Below, piece after piece: positions 23,255 through 36,625 of a stretch of 64,000 bases of DNA (position 1 is the stretch's first letter; every line of letters begins with the position of its first letter). The stretch is from Acidithiobacillus acidisediminis. Lineage in GTDB: Bacteria; Pseudomonadota; Gammaproteobacteria; Acidithiobacillales; Acidithiobacillaceae. The position numbers and the translations under genes were made by a program. The DNA lies in contig NZ_JALQCS010000001.1 of NCBI RefSeq assembly GCF_023277115.1, positions 310,001 to 374,000 on the forward strand, read 5' to 3'. The notes below the pieces were generated by a model. It had not been told where the DNA came from, made no database searches, and saw nothing but the letters and a program-made list of their open reading frames with translations.

Positions 23255-24850
23255 TCAGCGGTGTTGCTGGAAGCGGTGCAGATCGGAGCGCAGGGGTGCC
23301 TGGGCAAAGTGCTCTTTCCACAGACGAGGGGTGAGTTGGGCCACGTCCTTGGCCGGATGCTGACCGACCCGCTGCAGGACGTCTACGAGATAATCGTAGG
23401 GATCGATCCCCTGCAGGCGGCAGGTACTGAGCAGACTCTGGATGATACCGAGATGCTCTGCACCAAGTTCAGTCCAGCAGAAGAGCCAGTTTTTTCTCCC
23501 CAAGGGAATGGGTCGGATCTGGCACTCGATGTGGTTGGTGTCGATGGGCACGTCAGGTTCTTCCAGAAAGACCTGCAGCGGCCCCTTGCGACTGTGGACG
23601 TAGGCGAGGGCCTTGGTGAAGGGATTGCTGGGTAGCAAGGCCGTATCCGTCAGCTGCTGTTCGACCCAAGTGAAGAACTGGGCGACCCGGGGGCGGCTAT
23701 GGGTATAGCGATAGTGCCGCTTGTCCGCACCGCTCAATCCTTGGCTGCGAATCTCATCTTCGACGCGATAGAACGCCCGGATCTGCTCCAGGGCCTCGGC
23801 CACCCTTTCCGGGGCGTGGGCCTCGGCACGCACGAACTCCCGTCGGCTGTGGGCCCAGCACTGGGCATGGATCAGCCCCGCGTTTTCTTTCTGGAAGCGG
23901 GCATAAGCGGCATAGCCATCGCTCAGGAGCACCGTACCCGGCGCCAAGGGGCCCAAGAGCTCCCGGATGTGGATGGTGCCCCGGCTTTCGGCATAGGGAA
24001 AGCAGATCTCCTGGGCATCGCCAAAGACCGGCCAGAAGTACCCTTGGTGCATCTTGCCCTTTTCCCGGCGTCCCGCCTTGATGGGGGTCTCGTCCATAGT
24101 CAGCACGCGAGACTGGCGAATGCTCTCAAACTGGGCCGTATAGATGGGGGACAGGAGCAGAATGGACCGTTGCACGAGATCGGTGAGCCAAGAGCGACTG
24201 ACCCGCAGGCCTTGGGCCACCATCCGCTGATGCTGCCGATAGAGCGGCAAGTGGTACAGGAACTTATCCGTCAGGATTCCCGCCAGCAGGCTGACATCGG
24301 CCCGGCTGCCGTCCAGAACCCCCATGGGAGCCGGGGCGGTGTGCAGGGTCTCCGATTCCCGGAGCTTGACCACCGGCCGCTCGTATTTGAGGACGACATA
24401 GCTGCCTGGCCGCTGGGCCAGGCGGTAGCTGACCTTGGTATCGATGATCTCGCAGGCGTCGGGATCGAGGCCTGCGATCTCGGGAGCCGGGAGGGTGATG
24501 GTTTCGGTAGGTACCCGGCTCTCATCGAAGAAGGGCAGGCTTTCGGCCCGATCTTCCGGCCGTTTGGGCGCGGCGCGAGTATGGGCGGCGACGATACGAA
24601 GAGGCGCAGGTGCGACTTCCGCCGGAGAAAACTCCTGACCGAGACTCAGCTGCTCGACCGGAGGCGGAGGGACGCGCCGTTCGCTCTTCTGGCCGAAGAA
24701 CTGCTGGCGGAACCAATCGAGCTGGCTTTGGAGCCCTTGGATTTGGGCTTCAAATTTCTTGTGGATGGTGGCATTGATCTCGACCTGCAGCTGCCAGGCA
24801 GCGAGGGCTTCGGGGTAGTTTCTGGGGGTGGGAGATTCTGCCAAATCCAT
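23255..24850 (-). CDS. tnpC: IS66 transposase TnpC
   Basis: The 531-residue DDE transposase of the element. An N-terminal coiled coil and leucine-rich region (about 20-55, QGLQSQLDWFRQQFFG) precede the zinc-binding-like and catalytic parts; VLTMDETPIKAG and VLLSDGYAAYARF give the first two catalytic Asp, and the C-terminal IS66 domain contains the RPIPLGRKNWLF box. Full length, no frameshift. Confidence 0.95.
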   Translation of the reverse strand: MDLAESPTPRNYPEALAAWQLQVEINATIHKKFEAQIQGLQSQLDWFRQQFFGQKSERRVPPPPVEQLSLGQEFSPAEVAPAPLRIVAAHTRAAPKRPEDRAESLPFFDESRVPTETITLPAPEIAGLDPDACEIIDTKVSYRLAQRPGSYVVLKYERPVVKLRESETLHTAPAPMGVLDGSRADVSLLAGILTDKFLYHLPLYRQHQRMVAQGLRVSRSWLTDLVQRSILLLSPIYTAQFESIRQSRVLTMDETPIKAGRREKGKMHQGYFWPVFGDAQEICFPYAESRGTIHIRELLGPLAPGTVLLSDGYAAYARFQKENAGLIHAQCWAHSRREFVRAEAHAPERVAEALEQIRAFYRVEDEIRSQGLSGADKRHYRYTHSRPRVAQFFTWVEQQLTDTALLPSNPFTKALAYVHSRKGPLQVFLEEPDVPIDTNHIECQIRPIPLGRKNWLFCWTELGAEHLGIIQSLLSTCRLQGIDPYDYLVDVLQRVGQHPAKDVAQLTPRLWKEHFAQAPLRSDLHRFQQHR

Positions 24851-24900
24851 AGCAGAATCATAACACTAACTGCTTAATATCGCAAGCATTTCAGCGGGTT

Positions 24901-25254
24901 TCAGGAGAATTTTTCTCCGTTTTGGTGCCGATAACGGCGCCTTTTTTGGACGCCATCGATGCCCTCCAACAGGAGTTTGAGACCGGTCCAGTCGATCTCC
25001 GCTTTGGGGGGATGCCGCCACGACCAAAAGCCACCCCGCTCCAGGCGCTTGGCCCAGAGACAGTATCCCGTTCGATCCCAATACAGCACCTTCATCTGGG
25101 TCGCCCTGCGATTCACGAAGACGAAGCAATGCCCGGACAGGGGATCCTGGGCGAAGGTCGGATGCACCAAGGCCGAGAGCCCGTCGAAGGACTTACGCAT
25201 GTCCACCGGCACCCGGCAAAGAAAGACCCGGATGCGTCCTTCCGGAAAGAACAT
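24901..25254 (-). CDS. tnpB: IS66 accessory protein TnpB
   Basis: The 117-residue IS66 Orf2 protein with the family pattern RVFLCRVPVDMRKSFDGLSALV, GHCFVFVNRRATQMKVLYWDRTGY and the terminal RYRHQNGEK-like tail. Required with TnpA and TnpC for IS66 transposition; its biochemical role is unclear. Confidence 0.94.
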   Translation of the reverse strand: MFFPEGRIRVFLCRVPVDMRKSFDGLSALVHPTFAQDPLSGHCFVFVNRRATQMKVLYWDRTGYCLWAKRLERGGFWSWRHPPKAEIDWTGLKLLLEGIDGVQKRRRYRHQNGEKFS

Positions 25255-25257
25255 CCC

Positions 25258-25587
25258 TCAGCCTCGCCGAATCGAGAGGACGCAGCCACCCCCCAGGTCG
25301 AGGCGAATCTCCAGGGGCAGCGCCCGCGCTGCAGATGGTGGCACAGCACCCAGGCCCAATTCCACGAAGGCAGGAGCCATCGCCTCCCCATCATCCCCGG
25401 GAGCTACCACGCCACCGCTCTCCAGGCGCAGGCGACGCCGCCAATAATAAAACTGCGGCAGGGACAGTCCGTGTTCTGCGCAGAACTGTCGGGCAGAAAG
25501 GCCACAAGCCTCGTATTCCTGCATCCGTTGCTGCCAGACCTCCGTCCGGGCCTGAACCTTGCCGCTATCTTCTGGGGTGTTTTCCAT
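25258..25587 (-). CDS. tnpA: IS66 accessory protein TnpA
   Basis: The 109-residue IS66 Orf1 protein with a helix-turn-helix (CGLSARQFCAEHGLSLPQFYYWRRRL) and a C-terminal strand-rich part ending IRLDLGGGCVLSIRRG. First gene of the element, 84 bases from the right end; tnpB starts three bases after its stop. Confidence 0.92.
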   Translation of the reverse strand: MENTPEDSGKVQARTEVWQQRMQEYEACGLSARQFCAEHGLSLPQFYYWRRRLRLESGGVVAPGDDGEAMAPAFVELGLGAVPPSAARALPLEIRLDLGGGCVLSIRRG

Positions 25588-28689: not shown

Positions 28690-29414
28690 TGTTAGCCCCA
28701 AGCAGTAATATCCCCCTTTGCGTTGTGGGGGCGGCATGGGCGAGGAGTACATCACGATGAGCTATCGAGAGATGGATCGACTGGAGTTGCTGCAAGCTCT
28801 GATGGGTAAGCAGCTCCGGCAACGGGAGGTCGCCGAGCGGCTGAGTCTGAGCGTGCGCCAGGTCAAACGCGTTGTCGCACGGTATCGGGCCGAAGGTCTG
28901 TGGCTGGCGAAGCGGCGCAAGGCGGCCCGTATCCATCAACGACGGCCCCAACGCCCTTATCTCGGTGAACTGGTACAGATCGACGGCTCGCCCCACGACT
29001 GGTTCGAGGAGCGTGGTTCCCGCTGTACCCTCATCATCTTCATAGACGATGCTACTAGCCGCCTGATGGCTTTGCATTTCGTACCAGCCGAGACTACCCA
29101 AGCGTATATGGAGACCCTGCAAGCGTACCTGAAAGCGCATGGTCGCCCGGTAGCCCTGTACTCCGACAAGCACAGCATCTTTCGCGTCAATCACCCCGAT
29201 CAGGAAGGGGTACCCACCCAGTTCACTCGCGCTCTGCAGACCTTGGATATCCAAGCCATCCACGCCAACAGCCCGCAAGCCAAGGGGCGGGTCGAACGGA
29301 GCCACCGGAAACCCGCGCCCGACCATCCCTGGCGACGATACCCGCGGTCAAAGCCTGCTCCCGTATCCACCCTCTGAACTCCCTCCAAGGGGACATTCCT
29401 GCTTTGGGTTGATA
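28690..29414 (+). mobile_element. Internally deleted IS1202-type element, 725 bp
   Basis: Same element as 59475-60908 but with 709 bp missing in four blocks: 24 bp at the left end, 198 bp and 462 bp inside the transposase gene, and 25 bp at the right end. Both terminal inverted repeats remain. No target duplication is seen around it, so it is older or its flanks have been rearranged. Non-autonomous. Confidence 0.9.
28757..29377 (+). pseudogene. Transposase remnant with two in-frame deletions
   Basis: Reads as an uninterrupted 206-residue frame starting MSYREMDRLELL but lacks residues corresponding to codons between the two GGCCGAAGG repeats (66 codons) and between the two AACGG repeats (154 codons) of the intact copy. 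The helix-turn-helix and the first two catalytic Asp (QIDGSPHDW, YSDKHSIF) remain; it joins GRVER directly to the C-terminal SHRKPAPDHPW. Not expected to transpose. Confidence 0.85.
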
Positions 29415-29624: not shown

Positions 29625-29657
29625 GAATATAAATAAATGGGCCAGGAGTCTGGCCCA
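29625..29657 (-). terminator. Terminator of the porin-DsrE operon
   Basis: Minus strand: eight-bp stem TGGGCCAG/CTGGCCCA with GACTC-type four-base loop, followed by TTTATTTATATT, 23 bases after the DsrE stop. Confidence 0.75.
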
Positions 29658-29679: not shown

Positions 29680-30177
29680 TTACGGCTTTACATAGTTGAA
29701 ACCATGGCTCTCTAACTGCATGATCCGCACGATTCCAGCAGGAACCACAACAGCTGATGGAACTAATATGGGCAGGTGGCCAATTTTCTTTTTCATCTCT
29801 TCCATCGTATTGTGACACGCATCAAACTCAACACCCTCAGCATTCATCGCAGCAATCTTTTGGGCTACAGGGCTATTTTTCAATTCCATCTTAAGGCCAG
29901 GACCAAACGCTACAACGACTATTTGAACTTTCTCCTGCCCAAAATAATTCAATATATTTTGGGCCGTATTCAGCGTTAGATTCCATCTGCCCGGACTATC
30001 CTGACTCACTTGCATTACCAACTTCCGTTGAGCAAACGGATGAGCGTGAAGGAATGCTGGTTGATTAAAGTGAAAATCATGAAGCATAGAGACATTTGCA
30101 AACGCCGTGCCCACGCTAAATATTCCCATTCCTAGAATAAACAATACTAAGAACGTGCTACGTAGATATTTTGTCAT
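29680..30177 (-). CDS. Exported DsrE-family protein
   Basis: A 165-residue protein with signal peptide (MTKYLRSTFLVLFILGMGIF, cleavage near AFA-NV) and a DsrE domain: KLVMQVSQDSPGRWNLTLNTAQNIL, VVAFGPGLKMEL, the Cys in FDACHNTM and the terminal GIVRIMQLESHGFNYVKP. Periplasmic members of this group are linked to sulfur compound handling. It follows the porin by 19 bases and precedes a terminator, so it is the second gene of a two-gene operon under the sigma-54-type promoter at 31595-31610. Confidence 0.82.
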   Translation of the reverse strand: MTKYLRSTFLVLFILGMGIFSVGTAFANVSMLHDFHFNQPAFLHAHPFAQRKLVMQVSQDSPGRWNLTLNTAQNILNYFGQEKVQIVVVAFGPGLKMELKNSPVAQKIAAMNAEGVEFDACHNTMEEMKKKIGHLPILVPSAVVVPAGIVRIMQLESHGFNYVKP

Positions 30178-30196: not shown

Positions 30197-31543
30197 TTAG
30201 AAAGAAATCATAGCCTGCATAGCAAACTCATTATCTACCGCCTTACTCACGATAGCTCCTGGACTGTTTGGCGCCACGTTGGGAGCCTCTATAGTCCTGA
30301 AGTAATAGCCTGCCATAATCTTGGTAATAGGCGTGATATGATACTGTAGTGCAAGCGCCCAGGTTTTGAATATTCTCTCACCACCTACCGCTGCAAGATT
30401 TGGAAGACGGTCGTAATAATCATATCGGAGATTCATCTCGATATTCTTGGTTAAAAACAAGCCACCTTCCACATAATATCCTGCGGCAGTGTTGCTGAGG
30501 TTTGGGTATAGTTGTGCCTGAGTTAGCGCTGGCGCTAGGCCCAATTGTTGGCTGAATGCCGCAGGCGCATCTATCCAGCCATTGCCCCGCATATACTCAA
30601 ACTTGAGCTGGCGGCCCCATGGGTGCATATAGCCTTGCAGATATTGGAAACCAACTCCTTCCCGCTGCATCGTATAGCTGTGATGCATCAGGGTTGGCTG
30701 GGCGTTCTGATACCACACCCAAGCGGTAACATCACTTCGGAACGGTCCATGTCCAGAGAAGATATACGATCCCTGTAGGCGAGCAGCATAGAGTGGATGG
30801 CTAGATTGGTTTCCCGCTGACACACTTCCATACATTCCGACCATGGCACCATACGCTATTTGCCAATGGCCCCAGTTCTTCCAATCAAAAAGTTGCACGC
30901 CAGGATAGCGAAACGCATTTACACCCAAAGTTTGCGTACTACTTATCAGTGCTGAGCCGTCAGGCCCAGCCGGATAGGGTTGTCCTGGATTGGAGACGTA
31001 AAGCGGTTGCAACATGAGCTGGTTGATCACCGTCGGGAAAACCACATAGTTGTAACTCATATAGCCGTTCATGGCGTCTTCCGCGCTGGGGGCCCGGATT
31101 ATTCCCACCTCGAGCCGAGCCCCAGGAATATAACTGAGGACGACGTGTCCGTCCTGTAGCTGCGGCTGGTATTGCCCTCGGATCATCGTGGCAGCATTAT
31201 TGCCAAATTCTCCAGCAAAGAAGTATGAAACATGAGGATTTACCCATCCACGGATCATCAGCCTTGCCCGTTGAATAGTCCCTGTACTACTCTGGTCAAA
31301 GTTGGGGCCTACCAGATTTGTATGCGGTATCGCGTTAATGTAACGATGCAACTGGGGATTGTAGATGGATGCCTCTGTTCCTGCCATTGAGAATATTGAT
31401 GGCTCAATAAATCCAGAAAATAACGAGACATTTTTTGGATTGAGGTCCTGCAGCTTAAACCAGTTAGCGGCGTCTACGCATTGGCTCATGCACACCAATA
31501 CCGTAGCTGAGAGTCCACCGGCTACCAACTTTTTTATACTCAT
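30197..31543 (-). CDS. Outer membrane porin-like beta-barrel protein
   Basis: A 448-residue exported protein: signal MSIKKLVAGGLSATVLVCMS cleaved near VDA-ANW, then alternating aromatic-rich strands (RARLMIRGWVNPHVSYFFAGEF, MNLRYDYYDRL, YHITPITKIMAGYYF) and a C-terminal Phe, all typical of an outer membrane barrel of the OprO/P or carbohydrate-porin type. Substrate unknown; linkage to DsrE suggests uptake or release of a sulfur compound, which is inference. About 40 bases lie between the predicted start of transcription and the ATG. Confidence 0.75.
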   Translation of the reverse strand: MSIKKLVAGGLSATVLVCMSQCVDAANWFKLQDLNPKNVSLFSGFIEPSIFSMAGTEASIYNPQLHRYINAIPHTNLVGPNFDQSSTGTIQRARLMIRGWVNPHVSYFFAGEFGNNAATMIRGQYQPQLQDGHVVLSYIPGARLEVGIIRAPSAEDAMNGYMSYNYVVFPTVINQLMLQPLYVSNPGQPYPAGPDGSALISSTQTLGVNAFRYPGVQLFDWKNWGHWQIAYGAMVGMYGSVSAGNQSSHPLYAARLQGSYIFSGHGPFRSDVTAWVWYQNAQPTLMHHSYTMQREGVGFQYLQGYMHPWGRQLKFEYMRGNGWIDAPAAFSQQLGLAPALTQAQLYPNLSNTAAGYYVEGGLFLTKNIEMNLRYDYYDRLPNLAAVGGERIFKTWALALQYHITPITKIMAGYYFRTIEAPNVAPNSPGAIVSKAVDNEFAMQAMISF

Positions 31544-31594
31544 ACTTTCGTTTCCCCTCGCCTGTCTTGTGTTAACATTGTAATCCGGCTACTA

Positions 31595-31610
31595 TGCAAC
31601 TTACGTACCA
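31595..31610 (-). promoter_or_regulatory. Sigma-54 (-24/-12) promoter for the porin-DsrE operon
   Basis: On the minus strand TGGTACGTAAGTTGCA, against the consensus TGGCAC-N5-TTGCA: one mismatch, correct GG-N10-GC spacing. Transcription should start near 31584, about 40 bases before the porin ATG. Needs RpoN and an activator; neither gene is in the window. Confidence 0.8.
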
Positions 31611-31640
31611 TAGTAGAATAGGGAAACCGCTCCATGCTTT

Positions 31641-31656
31641 TGTCCCTTCTGGGACA
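31641..31656. promoter_or_regulatory. Activator-type inverted repeat (UAS)
   Basis: TGTCCCTTCTGGGACA: perfect six-base arms, and it also fits TGT-N10-ACA. It is centred about 65 bases upstream of the predicted sigma-54 start. From memory it closely resembles the TGTCCC-N4-GGGACA site reported for the TspR activator of the sox genes in A. caldus. Confidence 0.7.
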
Positions 31657-31665
31657 GAAATATCC

Positions 31666-31677
31666 GTCCAATTGGAC
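31666..31677. promoter_or_regulatory. Second palindrome, possible activator site
   Basis: GTCCAATTGGAC, a perfect 12-bp palindrome centred 23 bases (about two helical turns) from the first inverted repeat and sharing GTCC...GGAC half sites with different spacing. Confidence 0.5.
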
Positions 31678-31688
31678 CAAACCTCGCT
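31673..31688 (+). promoter_or_regulatory. Weak sigma-54-like promoter facing the DUF302 gene
   Basis: TGGACCAAACCTCGCT on the plus strand keeps the GG-N10-GC spacing but has several mismatches to consensus. It overlaps the second palindrome. If real, transcription would start near 31700, 30 bases before the DUF302 ATG. Confidence 0.35.
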
Positions 31689-31730: not shown

Positions 31731-32219
31731 ATGAAGATTGTCAAGACATTTCTATCATCAGCAGCATTTCTGGCATTTGGTTGTGGTGCAGCCTTAGCTT
31801 CGGATTCCTCCTTTTATACTGAAACCATCCCTGCGCCAATGGCTACCGCTCAAAAGGAAGTCGTCAATGCTCTTTCTCGAGGACATTTTAAAGTCGTCAT
31901 GAATTTAGACATCCTCAAACGAATTGAAGCTAAGCAGAAGGTGCTGCATATCCCAAACTTGAATCAAGGAGGCTATGCTGATGCCAGAGCAATAGTCTTC
32001 TGCAACCCTTTTTTGTTTAGTTCCCTACTGAACAGTGATTGGAAGGCATCTTCCGTTTGCCCTCTGAACCTTACCTTACTCAGCAAGGGAAGCAGCACTA
32101 CCGTGATATTCCCTAAAAGGACGGCTTACACGCACTCGACTAAGGCGTCCTCGGTTGGGATGAAAATGGATAAGATGGTAATTGCCAGCCTGAAAGCGAT
32201 CCCCGAAAGTCGCCCTTAA
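31731..32219 (+). CDS. Exported DUF302-domain protein
   Basis: A 162-residue protein with signal peptide MKIVKTFLSSAAFLAFGCGA cleaved near ALA-SDS, followed by a DUF302 fold: ATAQKEVVNALSRGHFKVVMNLDI and ARAIVFCNPFLFSSLLN. DUF302 proteins are small periplasmic or cytoplasmic proteins often found beside sulfur-metabolism genes; biochemical role unknown. AGGGAG lies six bases before ATG 31731. Divergent from the porin operon with the activator sites between. Confidence 0.75.
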   Translation: MKIVKTFLSSAAFLAFGCGAALASDSSFYTETIPAPMATAQKEVVNALSRGHFKVVMNLDILKRIEAKQKVLHIPNLNQGGYADARAIVFCNPFLFSSLLNSDWKASSVCPLNLTLLSKGSSTTVIFPKRTAYTHSTKASSVGMKMDKMVIASLKAIPESRP

Positions 32220-32233
32220 CCCTGGAGGGCGAC
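32209..32233 (+). terminator. Possible terminator of the DUF302 gene
   Basis: Seven-bp stem GTCGCCC/GGGCGAC overlapping the stop codon; no clear T-run follows. Confidence 0.35.
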
Positions 32234-32679
32234 CAGAAAGCTCTTGGGATGTTTCGGGATCGCGGAACTAAAGCCTCTTCATCCCGGGCTTTCAATGCCT
32301 CCAATTCCGCCCCCAGGCGCTGCACTCGCTGTGTCAGCGCCGACTCTGCCGCTGATAGCCTGCGGGATCTCCAAGATACCGGGGGATAAAGCAACGATCC
32401 GATCTGGGTAAACCCGTCCCAGCGGCCCCGTAGCTATTGCTGGGCAAGGTACAGCAGTACGCTGTGCTGGAGATCCTCCGGCCAGTCTTAGGTATCCGCA
32501 ACTTCCAGCAAGCGGGCCGTCAGAAGGGCACCCAGGTGCTCATCTGCAAAGTACAGGTGTAACTCCCGCAGATAACAGCCCTCGCTAACCTGATAGTCGT
32601 CAATACAACTGGCGGTGAGGGCACCACGAATTCGCTCAGCGCAGAAGCAAGGATGACTGGGGTAAGATGCCAATGCCAT
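32220..32679 (-). pseudogene. Decayed gene of unknown family
   Basis: One minus-strand frame reads as continuous protein-like sequence with two in-frame stops: CIDDYQVSEGCYLRELHLYF and ADEHLGALLTARLLEVA, a stop at 32488, then DWPEDLQHSVLLYLAQQ, a stop, then RGRWDGFTQIGSLLYP and a coiled-coil-like SAAESALTQRVQRLGAELEALKA. I do not recognise the family. Composition and continuity make random noise unlikely, but this is by eye. Confidence 0.35.
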
Positions 32680-32898
32680 AGGTGCCCAAGTCCTGCACGA
32701 TCAGCGGCAGGGCGATACCGGTCATGAAGATGACCAGCCCTCAAAGAACTTGCCGGCTACCGCCAGGGTCCAGATGCGCCCCTGCATTGCCGTCATCGGC
32801 GCACGCTGCAGGCGCGTGCCATCCAGCCAGACCGGCGCTTCATCGATATAATCTTGTATACTTTTCCCGTTGCCGGGATGGACCTGATTTTCCAGCAT
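32636..32898 (-). pseudogene. N-terminal fragment of an MFS transporter, frameshifted
   Basis: ATG 32898 has AGGAAA upstream and the frame reads SIQDYIDEAPVWLDGT, then MTAMQGRIWTLAVAGKFFEG, the cytoplasmic start and first helix entry of an MFS permease. A one-base change near 32738-32740 shifts the frame; on the other side it continues LVIFMTGIALPLIVQDLG, the rest of the first helix. The remaining helices are absent, replaced by the decayed gene at 32220-32679. Confidence 0.65.
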
Positions 32899-33299
32899 TC
32901 TCGTTTCCTCCCAATTCTGCCTTTTGATCTGGGTCTGTCGGAATGTTTCGCGCCCAAAATGCATTCCAGGCATCTTGCGCTTGCAGCGTAGCGCGCCAAT
33001 GTGACCGTAATATGACAGTTTGCAGCGCCTGGCCGGACCATCGCACTGCATCAGATTCTGACAATTCAAGTTTTCCCTGGGACGTGCCGTAGTGCTCCGT
33101 AGACGACCTTATTACCAGGGCCTAATATGCAGGACTCCATCAGCAGCAATCTTCTTGCAACCGCCAGCAGCCTGCTGGCCCGCCAGGTATCCCTTGGCAT
33201 CCAAATGGAGCATGCAGGTCTAGGCGCGGAGCAATGACGAAACCGGTCGCTTGATAGCCGGAATGCGCGACATGGTAAAGAATCTGACCCAGATCATCA
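32899..33299. other. No gene recognised
   Basis: About 400 bases between the MFS fragment and the cheR remnant. Short frames exist on both strands but none shows recognisable protein sequence; probably more decayed material. Confidence 0.4.
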
Positions 33300-33538
33300 G
33301 CGAAAGAACAATTCCAGCAAATCATTCTAAATAGTCCTCTGCCGGATGTGGGCAGTCTCGACAGGATCTGGTTACTCAATGTACTGATTTATTTTGACCT
33401 CGAGACCAAGGTGCAGATTTGTCAGCAGATTATGCAAAAGCTACGACCGGGGGGTATTTTCTCGTGGGGCACTCGGAAAGTTTACAGGGCTTGGTGCCTG
33501 GCCTGGAACTGGTACAAGTAGCAATCTATCGCAAATGA
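33300..33538 (+). pseudogene. cheR: cheR 3' remnant (chemotaxis methyltransferase)
   Basis: C-terminal part of a CheR-like methyltransferase: [29 protein letters not shown], then a lost base after the G-run at 33449-33454, then [13 protein letters not shown] and AIYRK to the stop at 33536-33538. The upstream two thirds of the gene are missing. It overlaps the start of the cheD-cheB chimera in ATGA fashion, the original operon coupling. Confidence 0.8.
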
Positions 33539-33918
33539 TGACGGTCCCGCGGGAAATCTTTCTGCAACCGGGAGACTGGCATTTTCGCGGTCCCGATCTG
33601 GTGCTTTGCACACTGCTCGGCTCCTGTATCGCCATTATCCTTTGGCATCCCCAGCGCCGAATTGGCGGAATGTGTCGCTTTCTCCTACCGCATCGCGCTG
33701 CCGCCCAGAAAACAACACTCGAGGGTCGCTATGGCGAAGAGGCTGTCGCCGCCATGCATCAGGCCGGAGCGCGAACCTTGGCCCAGGATGAAGAAAGCTG
33801 CATTGTCTTTGGCATGCCTAAGGAAGCGATCCGCCTCGGAGCAGTGAATGAAGTACTCCCGCTCGCCAATATTCCGTCTCGCCTCGCCCAGCTTTCGGGA
33901 CAGAGTCATGGCTCCTGA
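33535..33918 (+). pseudogene. CheD-CheB deletion chimera
   Basis: A 127-residue open frame whose first about 75 residues are CheD-like ([40 protein letters not shown]) and whose last about 50 are the C-terminus of a CheB methylesterase ([31 protein letters not shown]). A deletion has joined the two in frame near residue 72-76. The CheD catalytic Cys is kept, but the His normally in GGMxH is Arg. Receiver and catalytic parts of CheB are gone, so neither activity is expected. The GGDEF-EAL gene overlaps its end. Confidence 0.8.
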
Positions 33919-36625
33919 CCAGCAGAATCCGCTCCCTGATGTCGATCCGCTGCACAAACGGAGTGTTTTACGTTACTTGGCCTGGGGCGTTCTGTTCCTC
34001 TTCCTGATCGGCGCGACTCTGCTCATCAGCACGCAGTGGCAGCGACAGTTGACGGAGCGAGTCAGCCAACGGCAGAACCTGGCAGCACAGGAGAGTCTGC
34101 AACGCATGAGTTATCTGCTCAGCATCATGCTGCAGATCCATGGCCGCAACCTGATTCCCTTTGTCGTTGCGGGCAAGGAGAATTGGCCAGCACAGTTGCC
34201 GGCGTACAGCGAAATTCATCCCTATGTGCAACAACTGCATTGCTCCAGCTTTCAGGCTCCCCAGCCTTTTTCGCTCTCTGGATGTCGCCCTGGCAAAGGC
34301 CTGCCCAGTCTGAGTTGCCGCCTCGGGATTCCCAAGGCCCGCGCCGATGGCGACTTACATATTCCGCTGCAGCTCCAGGACAAGGCCATGGGCCATTCCT
34401 GTTCTGCCATTCTGCGTTTCGACGGCCTGAGTAGCCGGCAAGGCATCCTCCTTTCCCTCTATGCCGGAGCAAAAGCGCTGGCAACTTGGCAAAATGGCTA
34501 CTGGGGGCCAGCGGCGCCAGCACCGCAAGGTTGGCTCGTCAGTAGCCAGAAAGTGCAGGGAACCCCCCTGCAAATGCGGGTCTACTGGCAACACCAGCTG
34601 GATGCAGATGCCGAAGAGGTGCTTTGGCGCCAACGTTTGGGCACCGGCATCCTGCTGCTCTTAGAAACCATTCTTGCGGGTGTATCCCTGCTCTGGCTGA
34701 TTCGCCATGACATGGACCGACGTTTTCGCTGGGTGCAGGAACAACTGCGCGCCCAGATGATTAGGGACACCGTACCGAAAGAACTGTTTCAGTCTCTGGT
34801 TGCACTCAGCGTGCATGTCTTGCGGGCGCATGGGGCCTATATTGCCGAACCCGATCCGCTGCGAAAATCCCTGCGCATTACGGCCAGTTGCGATGTGCGC
34901 CAGGAAGTCCGCGATAGCTTGCAGCAACTGCCCCTGAGCCTGGATGAAAGCCTCGCGCCCTGGGGTCAACTCTTTCCCACCCTGGCCTTCCATCGCCGGG
35001 CGCGGACCGACCGCCACAGCCCCCATGTCTCCGGAGCTTGGGCGCAGGTCTGCGGCGAATATCCGGCCCTGCGCGGCCTCCGAGAGGTCATTGTCTGGCC
35101 GGTATTGGCATCCAGCGATCAAGACCCCGTAGCGGTATTCAGCCTCGAGATTCGCCGTTGGCAAAGACGACTCTTCCATCGTCCGTTGATTGAGCGCTGG
35201 GATCAGATTCTGCACGATCTGCAACTGCACCTGCAGGCCCAGCAAAGACAAACGGAAAAACAGCAACTGCTGCACTTCGATGTCCTGACCGGCCTGGCCA
35301 CGCGCAGGCATTTTCTCACCCTTGCCGAAGAACAATTGCAACGCAACGAACCCTGCTGGCTCGGGATTCTCGATCTCGATTATTTCAACGAAATGAATAC
35401 CATCTATGGCGACCAGCAGACGGATCAATGCCTGGCCGCAATCGGCGCGCAGATCCAATCGACATTACCCAAGGAGGCCCTGCTGGGGCGCATTGGTGGC
35501 GATGAGTTCGCCATCTTGCTCTGCGAAACGAAGGGCGCACCGGCTACGGCCAGTCCACAGATCGCTGCCGCGATCAATGCGGCTGGCAGGAAGATGCTCG
35601 GCAGCAATCTCGGTTGCTCCCTGGGTTGGGCACATTTTCCCAGTGACGACAATGAGATTGGCAAACTATTCCACCATGCCAGCGAGGCCTTGGCGCAAGC
35701 CAAGATCAACGGCCGCAACGGCTGGCAACTCTATGCTGGTGCAGTGTGTGAGCGGGCACAACGGCGCCTGCATGTGCATCATCATTTCGCGGCGGCGCTG
35801 CAGAATGGCGAAATCCGCTTTTACCTGCAAGGGAAGGGAGATCTGGAAAGCCGGCAAATCACCGGCGTGGAATTGCTGGCGCGCTGGATCGATCAGGACC
35901 GGCACAAGCTCAGCCCGGGCAAGTTCATGCCCTATGTGGAAGAAAACCCGCGCCTCATTCGTCTGTTGGGGCGCCACGCCCTCCGCGAGGCCCAACGCCT
36001 GCGAGACAAGACCCTAGACCTTGGATTAGGACATTGGTCGATCTCGGTGAATATTGGTGCGCGACACTTTCTTGCCCCCGAATTTCTAAATGACCTACAG
36101 GAAGTCTGCCCCGACGGTCGCGGACTGGTATTGGAGCTGACGGAAACGGCGCAGGCGCTGGGTCGAGGCTCGGCGCGTCCCATCATGGAGCGCTGTCACG
36201 AGCTTGGATACCAGCTCTCCATGGATGACTTTGGTACCGGCTATTCCTCCTTGCTTTCCGTGGCCCGCCTGCCCTTCGACGAACTGAAGCTCGACCAAAG
36301 CTTCATTCGCCAGTTCCGCTCCGACATCGGTAGTTTCAGCATCGCTGGCGCGGCACGCCTTCTCAGTCAGTTGACTCATATTCGTTTACTCGCAGAAGGC
36401 ATCGAAACACCAGGAGAACTGCGCTTGTGGCAACAATTAGGCGGGCGCTACATCCAGGGCTACATTCTAGCTCCCCCACTTCCAGAAAATGCGTTCTTCA
36501 CTTGGCATGACCAGCTGATGCCCGCGCTTCTGCACACTAAGGCGCCGGTTCCACTACAAGATTTGGATTGGCTCTGGGAATTGATGCAGAACCATCAGGA
36601 AAGCAAGCGCCGCCGCAGCAAGTAG
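33908..36625 (+). CDS. Membrane GGDEF-EAL cyclic-di-GMP protein
   Basis: A 905-residue signalling protein: TM1 (about 20-42, [20 protein letters not shown]), an extracytoplasmic sensor region (about 45-255), TM2 (about 262-285), a GAF-like region (about 310-440), a GGDEF domain with intact active site ([11 protein letters not shown]) and an EAL domain. The EAL signature reads GVELLARW, and the other catalytic positions ([29 protein letters not shown]) are kept, so both synthesis and hydrolysis of c-di-GMP are possible. ATG 33908 overlaps the chimera's end. The 3' end overlaps the convergent ABC permease by 31 bases. Confidence 0.88.

Follow-up and report, generated by a model that had tools for sequence, protein, structure and literature searches.

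A predicted sigma-54 promoter with TspR-type activator sites in front of a porin-DsrE operon in Acidithiobacillus acidisediminis

In Acidithiobacillus caldus, the TspS/TspR system controls the sox-II genes (Li et al. 2017, as cited in PMC6335251). According to the latter, phosphorylated TspR binds the activator site (UAS) TGTCCCAAATGGGACA and starts sox-II transcription, and thiosulfate is the potential signal (PMC6335251). The regulator TcsR is described as orthologous to TspR in PMC12194929.

In the present study, we analyzed a stretch of 64 kb (the window) from the 2.81 Mb assembly of Acidithiobacillus acidisediminis (the host genome). All coordinates refer to the window unless given in kb, and the compared family genomes and loci are labeled G0xx and Lxxx, respectively. 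The locus under study resembles A. caldus sox-II in having the same UAS arms, a -24/-12 promoter, an orthologous regulator with an identical recognition helix, and a sulfur-oxidation context. In contrast to that system, the putative target in the window is not part of the tspSR-sox locus but a separate porin-DsrE operon. Its UAS begins 46 bp before the -24 element, instead of the 222 bp at sox-II of G018, an A. caldus-type genome, and an additional, weaker site is present 23 bp farther upstream. The A. ferrooxidans-type TcsS/TcsR-tetH system shares the orthologous regulator and the -24/-12 promoter, and its tetH is followed in the same orientation by an orthologue of the porin; however, this orthologue is without its own upstream -24/-12 element, and no DsrE-like match was found beside it.

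The first gene of the operon (30197..31543, minus strand) encodes a secreted protein of 448 aa, predicted to be an outer-membrane porin with an OprP/OprO-like barrel. The second (29680..30177, minus strand), located 19 nt after the porin stop, encodes a secreted DsrE-like protein of 165 aa with a signal-like N-terminus, and a terminator-like hairpin lies 3' of it at 29638..29657 on the minus strand (four such hairpins in the region versus 2.6 in shuffles). A gene for a secreted DUF302-like protein, the third member of a recurrent neighborhood, is divergently oriented at 31731..32219 (plus strand). Inspection by eye of the surroundings found a low-coding stretch and then a CheD-like frame at 32220-33920, maybe the remains of a chemotaxis cluster, and transposase-like frames (IS66-type; integrase-like) at 23255-25587 and 28718-29377, which flank one side.

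The predicted sigma-54 promoter of the operon, TGGTACGTAAGTTGCA (31595..31610), reads from 31610 to 31595 on the minus strand. It has a single mismatch to TGGCACG-N4-TTGCW, with the GG at -24 and the GC at -12 correctly spaced, in agreement with the preliminary description. That description had also put the element about 40 bases before the porin ATG (31543-31541). This holds for the start that the -12 GC predicts, which is near 31584 and 41 nt upstream of the ATG, but not for the 3' end of the element, which lies 51 nt ahead of the ATG. A scan of the region 5' of the porin found no sigma-70-type site. Taken alone, TGGTACGTAAGTTGCA is statistically non-significant; with up to two mismatches, the -24/-12 pattern has 14 matches in the window versus 14.5 expected from shuffles, and a second single-mismatch match exists besides TGGTACGTAAGTTGCA.

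Two palindromes lie upstream of this element, and all three sequences were found at the positions originally given for them. UAS1, TGTCCCTTCTGGGACA (31641..31656, no strand), is a predicted TspR-type activator site, an exact TGTCCC-N4-GGGACA centered at about -65 from the predicted start. No mismatch is present in TGTCCCTTCTGGGACA, versus two mismatches in each of the four other matches to this pattern in the window, and its arms are identical to those of the published A. caldus UAS TGTCCCAAATGGGACA. The second site, UAS2 (31664..31679, minus strand; center at about -88), is degenerate. It corresponds to TGGTCCAATTGGACGG, read from 31679 to 31664, with the palindrome GTCCAATTGGAC at 31666-31677 as its core; the left arm, TGGTCC, matches several tspR-adjacent sites, whereas the right arm deviates. 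The two sites had been placed two helical turns apart, and the measured center-to-center distance is 23 bp, or 2.2 turns. The first had been likened to the TspR site. This proved accurate, since PMC6335251 gives the A. caldus sox-II UAS as TGTCCCAAATGGGACA. The same sequence sits 12 bases past the tspR stop in G018, where a -24/-12 element, TGGCACGATTTCTGCT, precedes soxX.

For scoring, we searched the 170 bp that follow the stop codon at 27 tspR/tcsR loci from 26 genomes for sites differing from the published arms at no more than three positions; no porin sites were used. A site was obtained from 24 of the 27 loci. L086 and L106 yielded none, and L105, which has a broken gene, yielded one at +402 that was left out. 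Twelve distinct sites resulted, for the most part conforming to TGKNCC-N4-GGNMCA, and a symmetric matrix was built from them. On this matrix, UAS1 scores 19.06, the maximum, and UAS2 scores 1.7.

The scan of the host genome that had been proposed for TGTCCC-N4-GGGACA found a sole exact site, UAS1, in front of the porin -24/-12 element. Because about 0.17 exact matches are expected by chance in 2.81 Mb (calculated), this uniqueness is weak evidence alone. Three more sites have one mismatch. Those at 431 kb and 1,529 kb were rejected as targets, being inside solute-binding-protein and penicillin-binding-protein frames, respectively (named by eye); the third lies between another porin copy and another divergent DUF302-like gene. 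The wider pattern TGKNCC-N4-GGNMCA occurs at 13 sites versus 15 for the reversed-pattern control. Only three of these have the form TGTNCC-N4-GGNACA, namely those at this porin, at porin copy c (2,276 kb), and at sox-II beside tspR (2,740 kb). The site of copy c is between the predicted starts of two divergent genes, yet the porin frame is open across it. The remaining ten were rejected as targets; all are in open frames, one of them right where a copper-ATPase-like frame begins. On its own, the matrix is without specificity genome-wide, with five of the ten open-frame sites scoring 15.1-17.6 versus 14.5 for porin copy c. Throughout the 29 family genomes, the exact sequence occurs six times: as UAS1, twice behind tspR, once in a RecQ-like frame, and twice in G021. 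One of the G021 sites has no -24/-12 match within 300 bp; for the other, the sole match carries one mismatch, is oriented the opposite way, and has no nameable target. The case beyond chance is comparative and rests on the recurrence of predicted -24/-12 elements together with TspR-like sites before paralogues and orthologues of the porin.

The porin was found in 28 of the 29 family genomes. From 44 porin rows, two fragment rows of G013 were dropped and 42 were used. The promoter test covered 41 of these 42 copies, as the G006 copy has less than 340 bp upstream and was left out; after grouping of similar sequences, 30 were non-redundant. A porin-facing -24/-12 element with at most one mismatch was present in 34 of the 41 upstream regions and in 25 of the 30 non-redundant ones, five being without it (shuffle control: mean 0.95 of 30, maximum 5, 100 shuffles). 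The best UAS score averaged 7.5 over the 30 promoters versus 2.0 in dinucleotide shuffles (sd 0.56, maximum 3.7, 200 rounds). A score of at least 11 was reached by 9 of the 30 porin promoters versus 1.4% of the shuffles, and a score of at least 7 by 19, while the sites of the other 11 were weak (below 7). Among 542 control windows of 260 bp from other loci, mostly in the same genome, six reached 11 and none reached 13. The set of other -24/-12 sites, only nine with the tspR-sox and porin loci among them, was unusable as a control.

In 21 of the 34 promoters, the start of the best UAS is either 76-80 or 110-113 bp upstream of the -24 element, some of these sites being low-scoring. In the case of UAS1, the site begins 46 bp before the -24 element, about 33 bp nearer than in relatives, and several relatives have a weaker second site there. 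Among porin paralogues and orthologues, the distances often step by about 33 bp (-46, -78, -112), and such a spacing, close to three helical turns, would suit a regulator that contacts the DNA from a single side.

Since UAS1 and UAS2 lie between two divergent genes, the palindromes might instead serve the DUF302-like gene or an unrelated regulator, with the -24/-12 match arising by chance, and the single-site statistics in the window are weak enough to allow this. However, in contrast to the 25 of 30 non-redundant regions with an element directed toward the porin, none of the 30, and one of all 41, has an element facing away from it. Moreover, porin copy d and G021 are without a DUF302-like match in the examined flanks, and both sites are still present. 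We therefore consider this explanation very improbable. As no plus-strand -24/-12 match was found near the divergent DUF302-like gene, we set aside the possibility that sigma-54 controls it directly.

The neighborhoods of the porin genes are also recurrent. The host genome has four porin copies (three paralogues besides the window porin), and a DsrE-like gene comes after each of them. A DsrE-like match was found at 34 of the 42 porin loci (three partial; in copy a of G018, more than 1 kb after the porin). Within the flanks examined, a DUF302-like gene is near the porin at 18 of the 42 loci, divergent at 13 and downstream on the same strand at 5. In G007, G003, and G008, the order tcsR-tetH-porin is found behind a UAS-like site with one to three mismatches and -24/-12 sites. 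This order was seen in A. ferruginosus CF3, and G012 has tcsR-porin without tetH; TetH was named by its place and its PQQ-type propeller. At L107:7191-10517, and also at L108 and L110, we observed tcsR, a UAS (TGGCCCTTTTGGGACA), a -24/-12 element (TGGCACAATACATGCA), tetH, and a porin orthologue in succession, which is likely a TcsR-controlled tetH-porin operon.

In A. ferrianus MG, the genes porin-DsrE-DUF302-soxY-soxZ-hyp-soxB are arranged on one strand behind a -24/-12 element, TGGCACCGATATTGCT. About 2.5 kb upstream of this porin, the other strand encodes another activator, which has a MetOD1-type sensor domain and lacks a receiver (L144:797-2416, minus strand); thus, the control may differ in A. 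ferrianus. In a Thiobacillus MAG, soxY-soxZ-soxB come two frames after the porin, and in two Halothiobacillus MAGs a DsrE-like gene is directly before a distant porin. Distant porin homologues in the MAG loci L152, L155, and L156 are beside genes for an ECF-type sigma factor and an anti-sigma-like protein (by eye), which suggests another mode of control there.

The host genome encodes the proteins that such a promoter would need. The rpoN gene is present (PF04552, E 5e-71). At 2,737-2,745 kb, there is a row of genes for a sensor kinase, a receiver-AAA-HTH_8 activator, a cytochrome c, SoxY, SoxZ, SoxA, a further frame, and a 5'-nucleotidase-type protein. By position, the cytochrome c is soxX and the 5'-nucleotidase-type protein is soxB, and this tspS-tspR-sox row has the published sox-II order. 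TspR orthologues, TcsR included, were found in 26 of the 29 family genomes (E up to 1e-110). The host TspR is 77% identical to the G018 TspR, and the 20-residue recognition helix is identical.

The host genome contains 13 strong sigma-54 activator domains, from which count three weak matches were excluded, so the promoter might be driven by one of the 12 enhancer-binding proteins other than TspR. Consistent with this, the host sox-II site, TGTGCCTTTCGGCACA, has TGTGCC/GGCACA versus TGTCCC/GGGACA at the porin, a difference in the fourth base of each arm, and the A. ferrianus porin operon has a different activator near it. Furthermore, E. coli GlrR uses TGTC-N10-GACA, which resembles this palindrome but is spaced differently. 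The fourth arm base is variable across the tspR-adjacent sites of the family. Against another activator, UAS1 has the maximum score on a matrix made only from tspR/tcsR-adjacent sites, the recognition helix of TspR is that of the A. caldus-type G018, whereas the 12 other activators have at most 10 of its 20 residues in common with it, and, in relatives, the porin is found in operons that belong to TcsR, the orthologue of TspR. Control by another activator thus appears unlikely, and we prefer TspR as the regulator.

Modeled with AlphaFold2 from 29 sequences, the porin is a barrel (mean pLDDT 82.8). With VIA-align 2, OprP/OprO of Pseudomonas were the best fold matches (Z 27.8, 27.6, and 27.5 versus 24.0 for the next entry), with 305-307 aligned residues and an rmsd of 3.0, although the identity is only 14-15%. 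Foldseek, ranked by E-value, placed a Burkholderia porin first and OprP second. Another difference from OprP/OprO is that the window porin has no Pfam match and so stays below the cut-off of PF07396 (Porin_O_P), a family to which 11 of 34 porin homologues show matches with E values of up to 1 (best 1.4e-5). The alignment of the porins contains invariant arginines. Searches with the porin in PHROGs, and with the porin or its profile in the sequences of solved structures, gave nothing useful. OprP and OprO are phosphate and polyphosphate porins that answer to phosphate limitation. Because these are its nearest folds, the modeled porin is likely an anion channel.

This fold points to anions in general, and one genome has four porin copies. 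The regulation could accordingly be real while the porin serves as a general channel, or one for anions, whose copies are expressed with energy metabolism, and not as a dedicated route for sulfur compounds. The presence of the porin in an A. ferrooxidans-type genome favors such a role, as sox is given as not found in that species in PMC6335251. The repeated linkage of the porin to tetH, to sox genes, and to the DsrE-like gene argues against it. We regard a general channel as a serious possibility, with clearly less than an even chance of being correct.

The DsrE-like protein of the window scores 14.3 bits against PF02635 (cut-off 22.7); 19 of 24 relatives match this family at E up to 0.1 (best 7e-5), and the profile matches 1l1s with an E of 3.9e-10. 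Cys121 is invariant in the 24 aligned sequences and may be a sulfur carrier. Like the A. ferrooxidans-type thiosulfate dehydrogenase (NF052225, which we take to be AFE_0042), the DsrE-like protein has a CHN motif in its C-terminal part and ends in GxxYxK, but the alignment is confined to roughly the final 60 residues, and the hhalign match of the C-terminus is weak (E 5.6e-5, probability 66). The DsrE-like protein was rejected as a thiosulfate dehydrogenase of this type (19.8 bits versus a cut-off of 300), and a genome search of G000 gave no match to NF052225. The A. ferrooxidans-type thiosulfate dehydrogenase at L119:1501-2283 appears to have a DsrE-like C-terminal stretch that includes the CHN motif, which may be a clue to its chemistry. 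In PMC4175335, an archaeal DsrE3A is described as reacting with tetrathionate to give a cysteine thiosulfonate, and by analogy such chemistry is plausible for the DsrE-like protein. In the DUF302-like protein, Cys91 and Cys110 are conserved across 14 aligned sequences. A protein like it (HFKIVDDLNVL) is encoded at L121:2348-2878 (minus strand), near a second copy of the thiosulfate dehydrogenase (by eye).

The sites and their recurrence, the genes for the regulator and the sigma factor, and the linkage to sox and tetH can all be read from the DNA. Because of the UAS match, rpoN, the TspR helix, the recurrent promoters in the family, the gene order, and the OprP/OprO-like model, the element at 31595-31610 with its upstream sites is very probably the sigma-54 promoter of an operon in the TspR/TcsR regulon. 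The earlier proposal that the porin and DsrE belong to the TspR regulon is thereby supported by the recurrent -24/-12 elements and UASs, by tspSR and rpoN in the genome, and by the linkage to tcsR-tetH and sox; its label "thiosulfate-responsive" is carried over from A. caldus.

We propose the following mechanism, in which binding by TspR, induction, and the transport substrate are inferred. Reduced sulfur (thiosulfate in the A. caldus model) would be sensed by TspS, leading to phosphorylation of TspR. Phosphorylated TspR would bind UAS1 and, cooperatively, the weaker UAS2, and would remodel the closed complex, so that RNA polymerase with RpoN at 31595-31610 could transcribe the two-gene operon, which would be co-expressed with sox-II and the second porin-DsrE copy. 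The barrel would most likely pass thiosulfate, tetrathionate, and other polythionates into the periplasm, where the DsrE-like protein may take up or hand on sulfane sulfur or thiosulfonate via its conserved cysteine. If the porin and the DsrE-like protein rise with Sox, entry through the outer membrane and the first periplasmic handling would therefore be matched to oxidation. We are fairly confident of this explanation as a whole, that is, of an RpoN promoter with two UASs, a TspR-driven porin-DsrE operon, and a barrel that passes reduced sulfur anions. The dedicated route for sulfur compounds across the outer membrane suggested in the preliminary description seems reasonable.

The regulator, the site, the promoter class, and the barrel fold are of known kinds. 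As far as our literature search shows, the predicted place of this porin family in the TspR/TcsR regulon, the DsrE/DUF302 neighborhood, and the apparent membership in tetH/sox clusters are new. In the openly readable papers searched, no link of the porin to TspR/TcsR was found; by term search, "porin" is absent from PMC6335251, PMC12194929, and PMC5093147, and no paper on AFE_0029 with AFE_0030 was found.

A porin tied to sox and tetH by promoter, regulator, and gene order provides a named, testable candidate for the route that sulfur compounds take across the outer membrane in these biomining bacteria. We tentatively suggest, at somewhat below even chances, that the porin, the DsrE-like protein, and the DUF302-like protein act together in the outer membrane and periplasm of Acidithiobacillaceae and some neighbors as a module dedicated to reduced sulfur anions. 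In this module, the barrel would admit thiosulfate and polythionates, the DsrE-like protein, as a small relative of the C-terminus of the A. ferrooxidans thiosulfate dehydrogenase, would capture them on its cysteine, and TspR/TcsR would couple uptake to oxidation. If this is true, the module would be the outer-membrane step that is missing from current models of sulfur oxidation.
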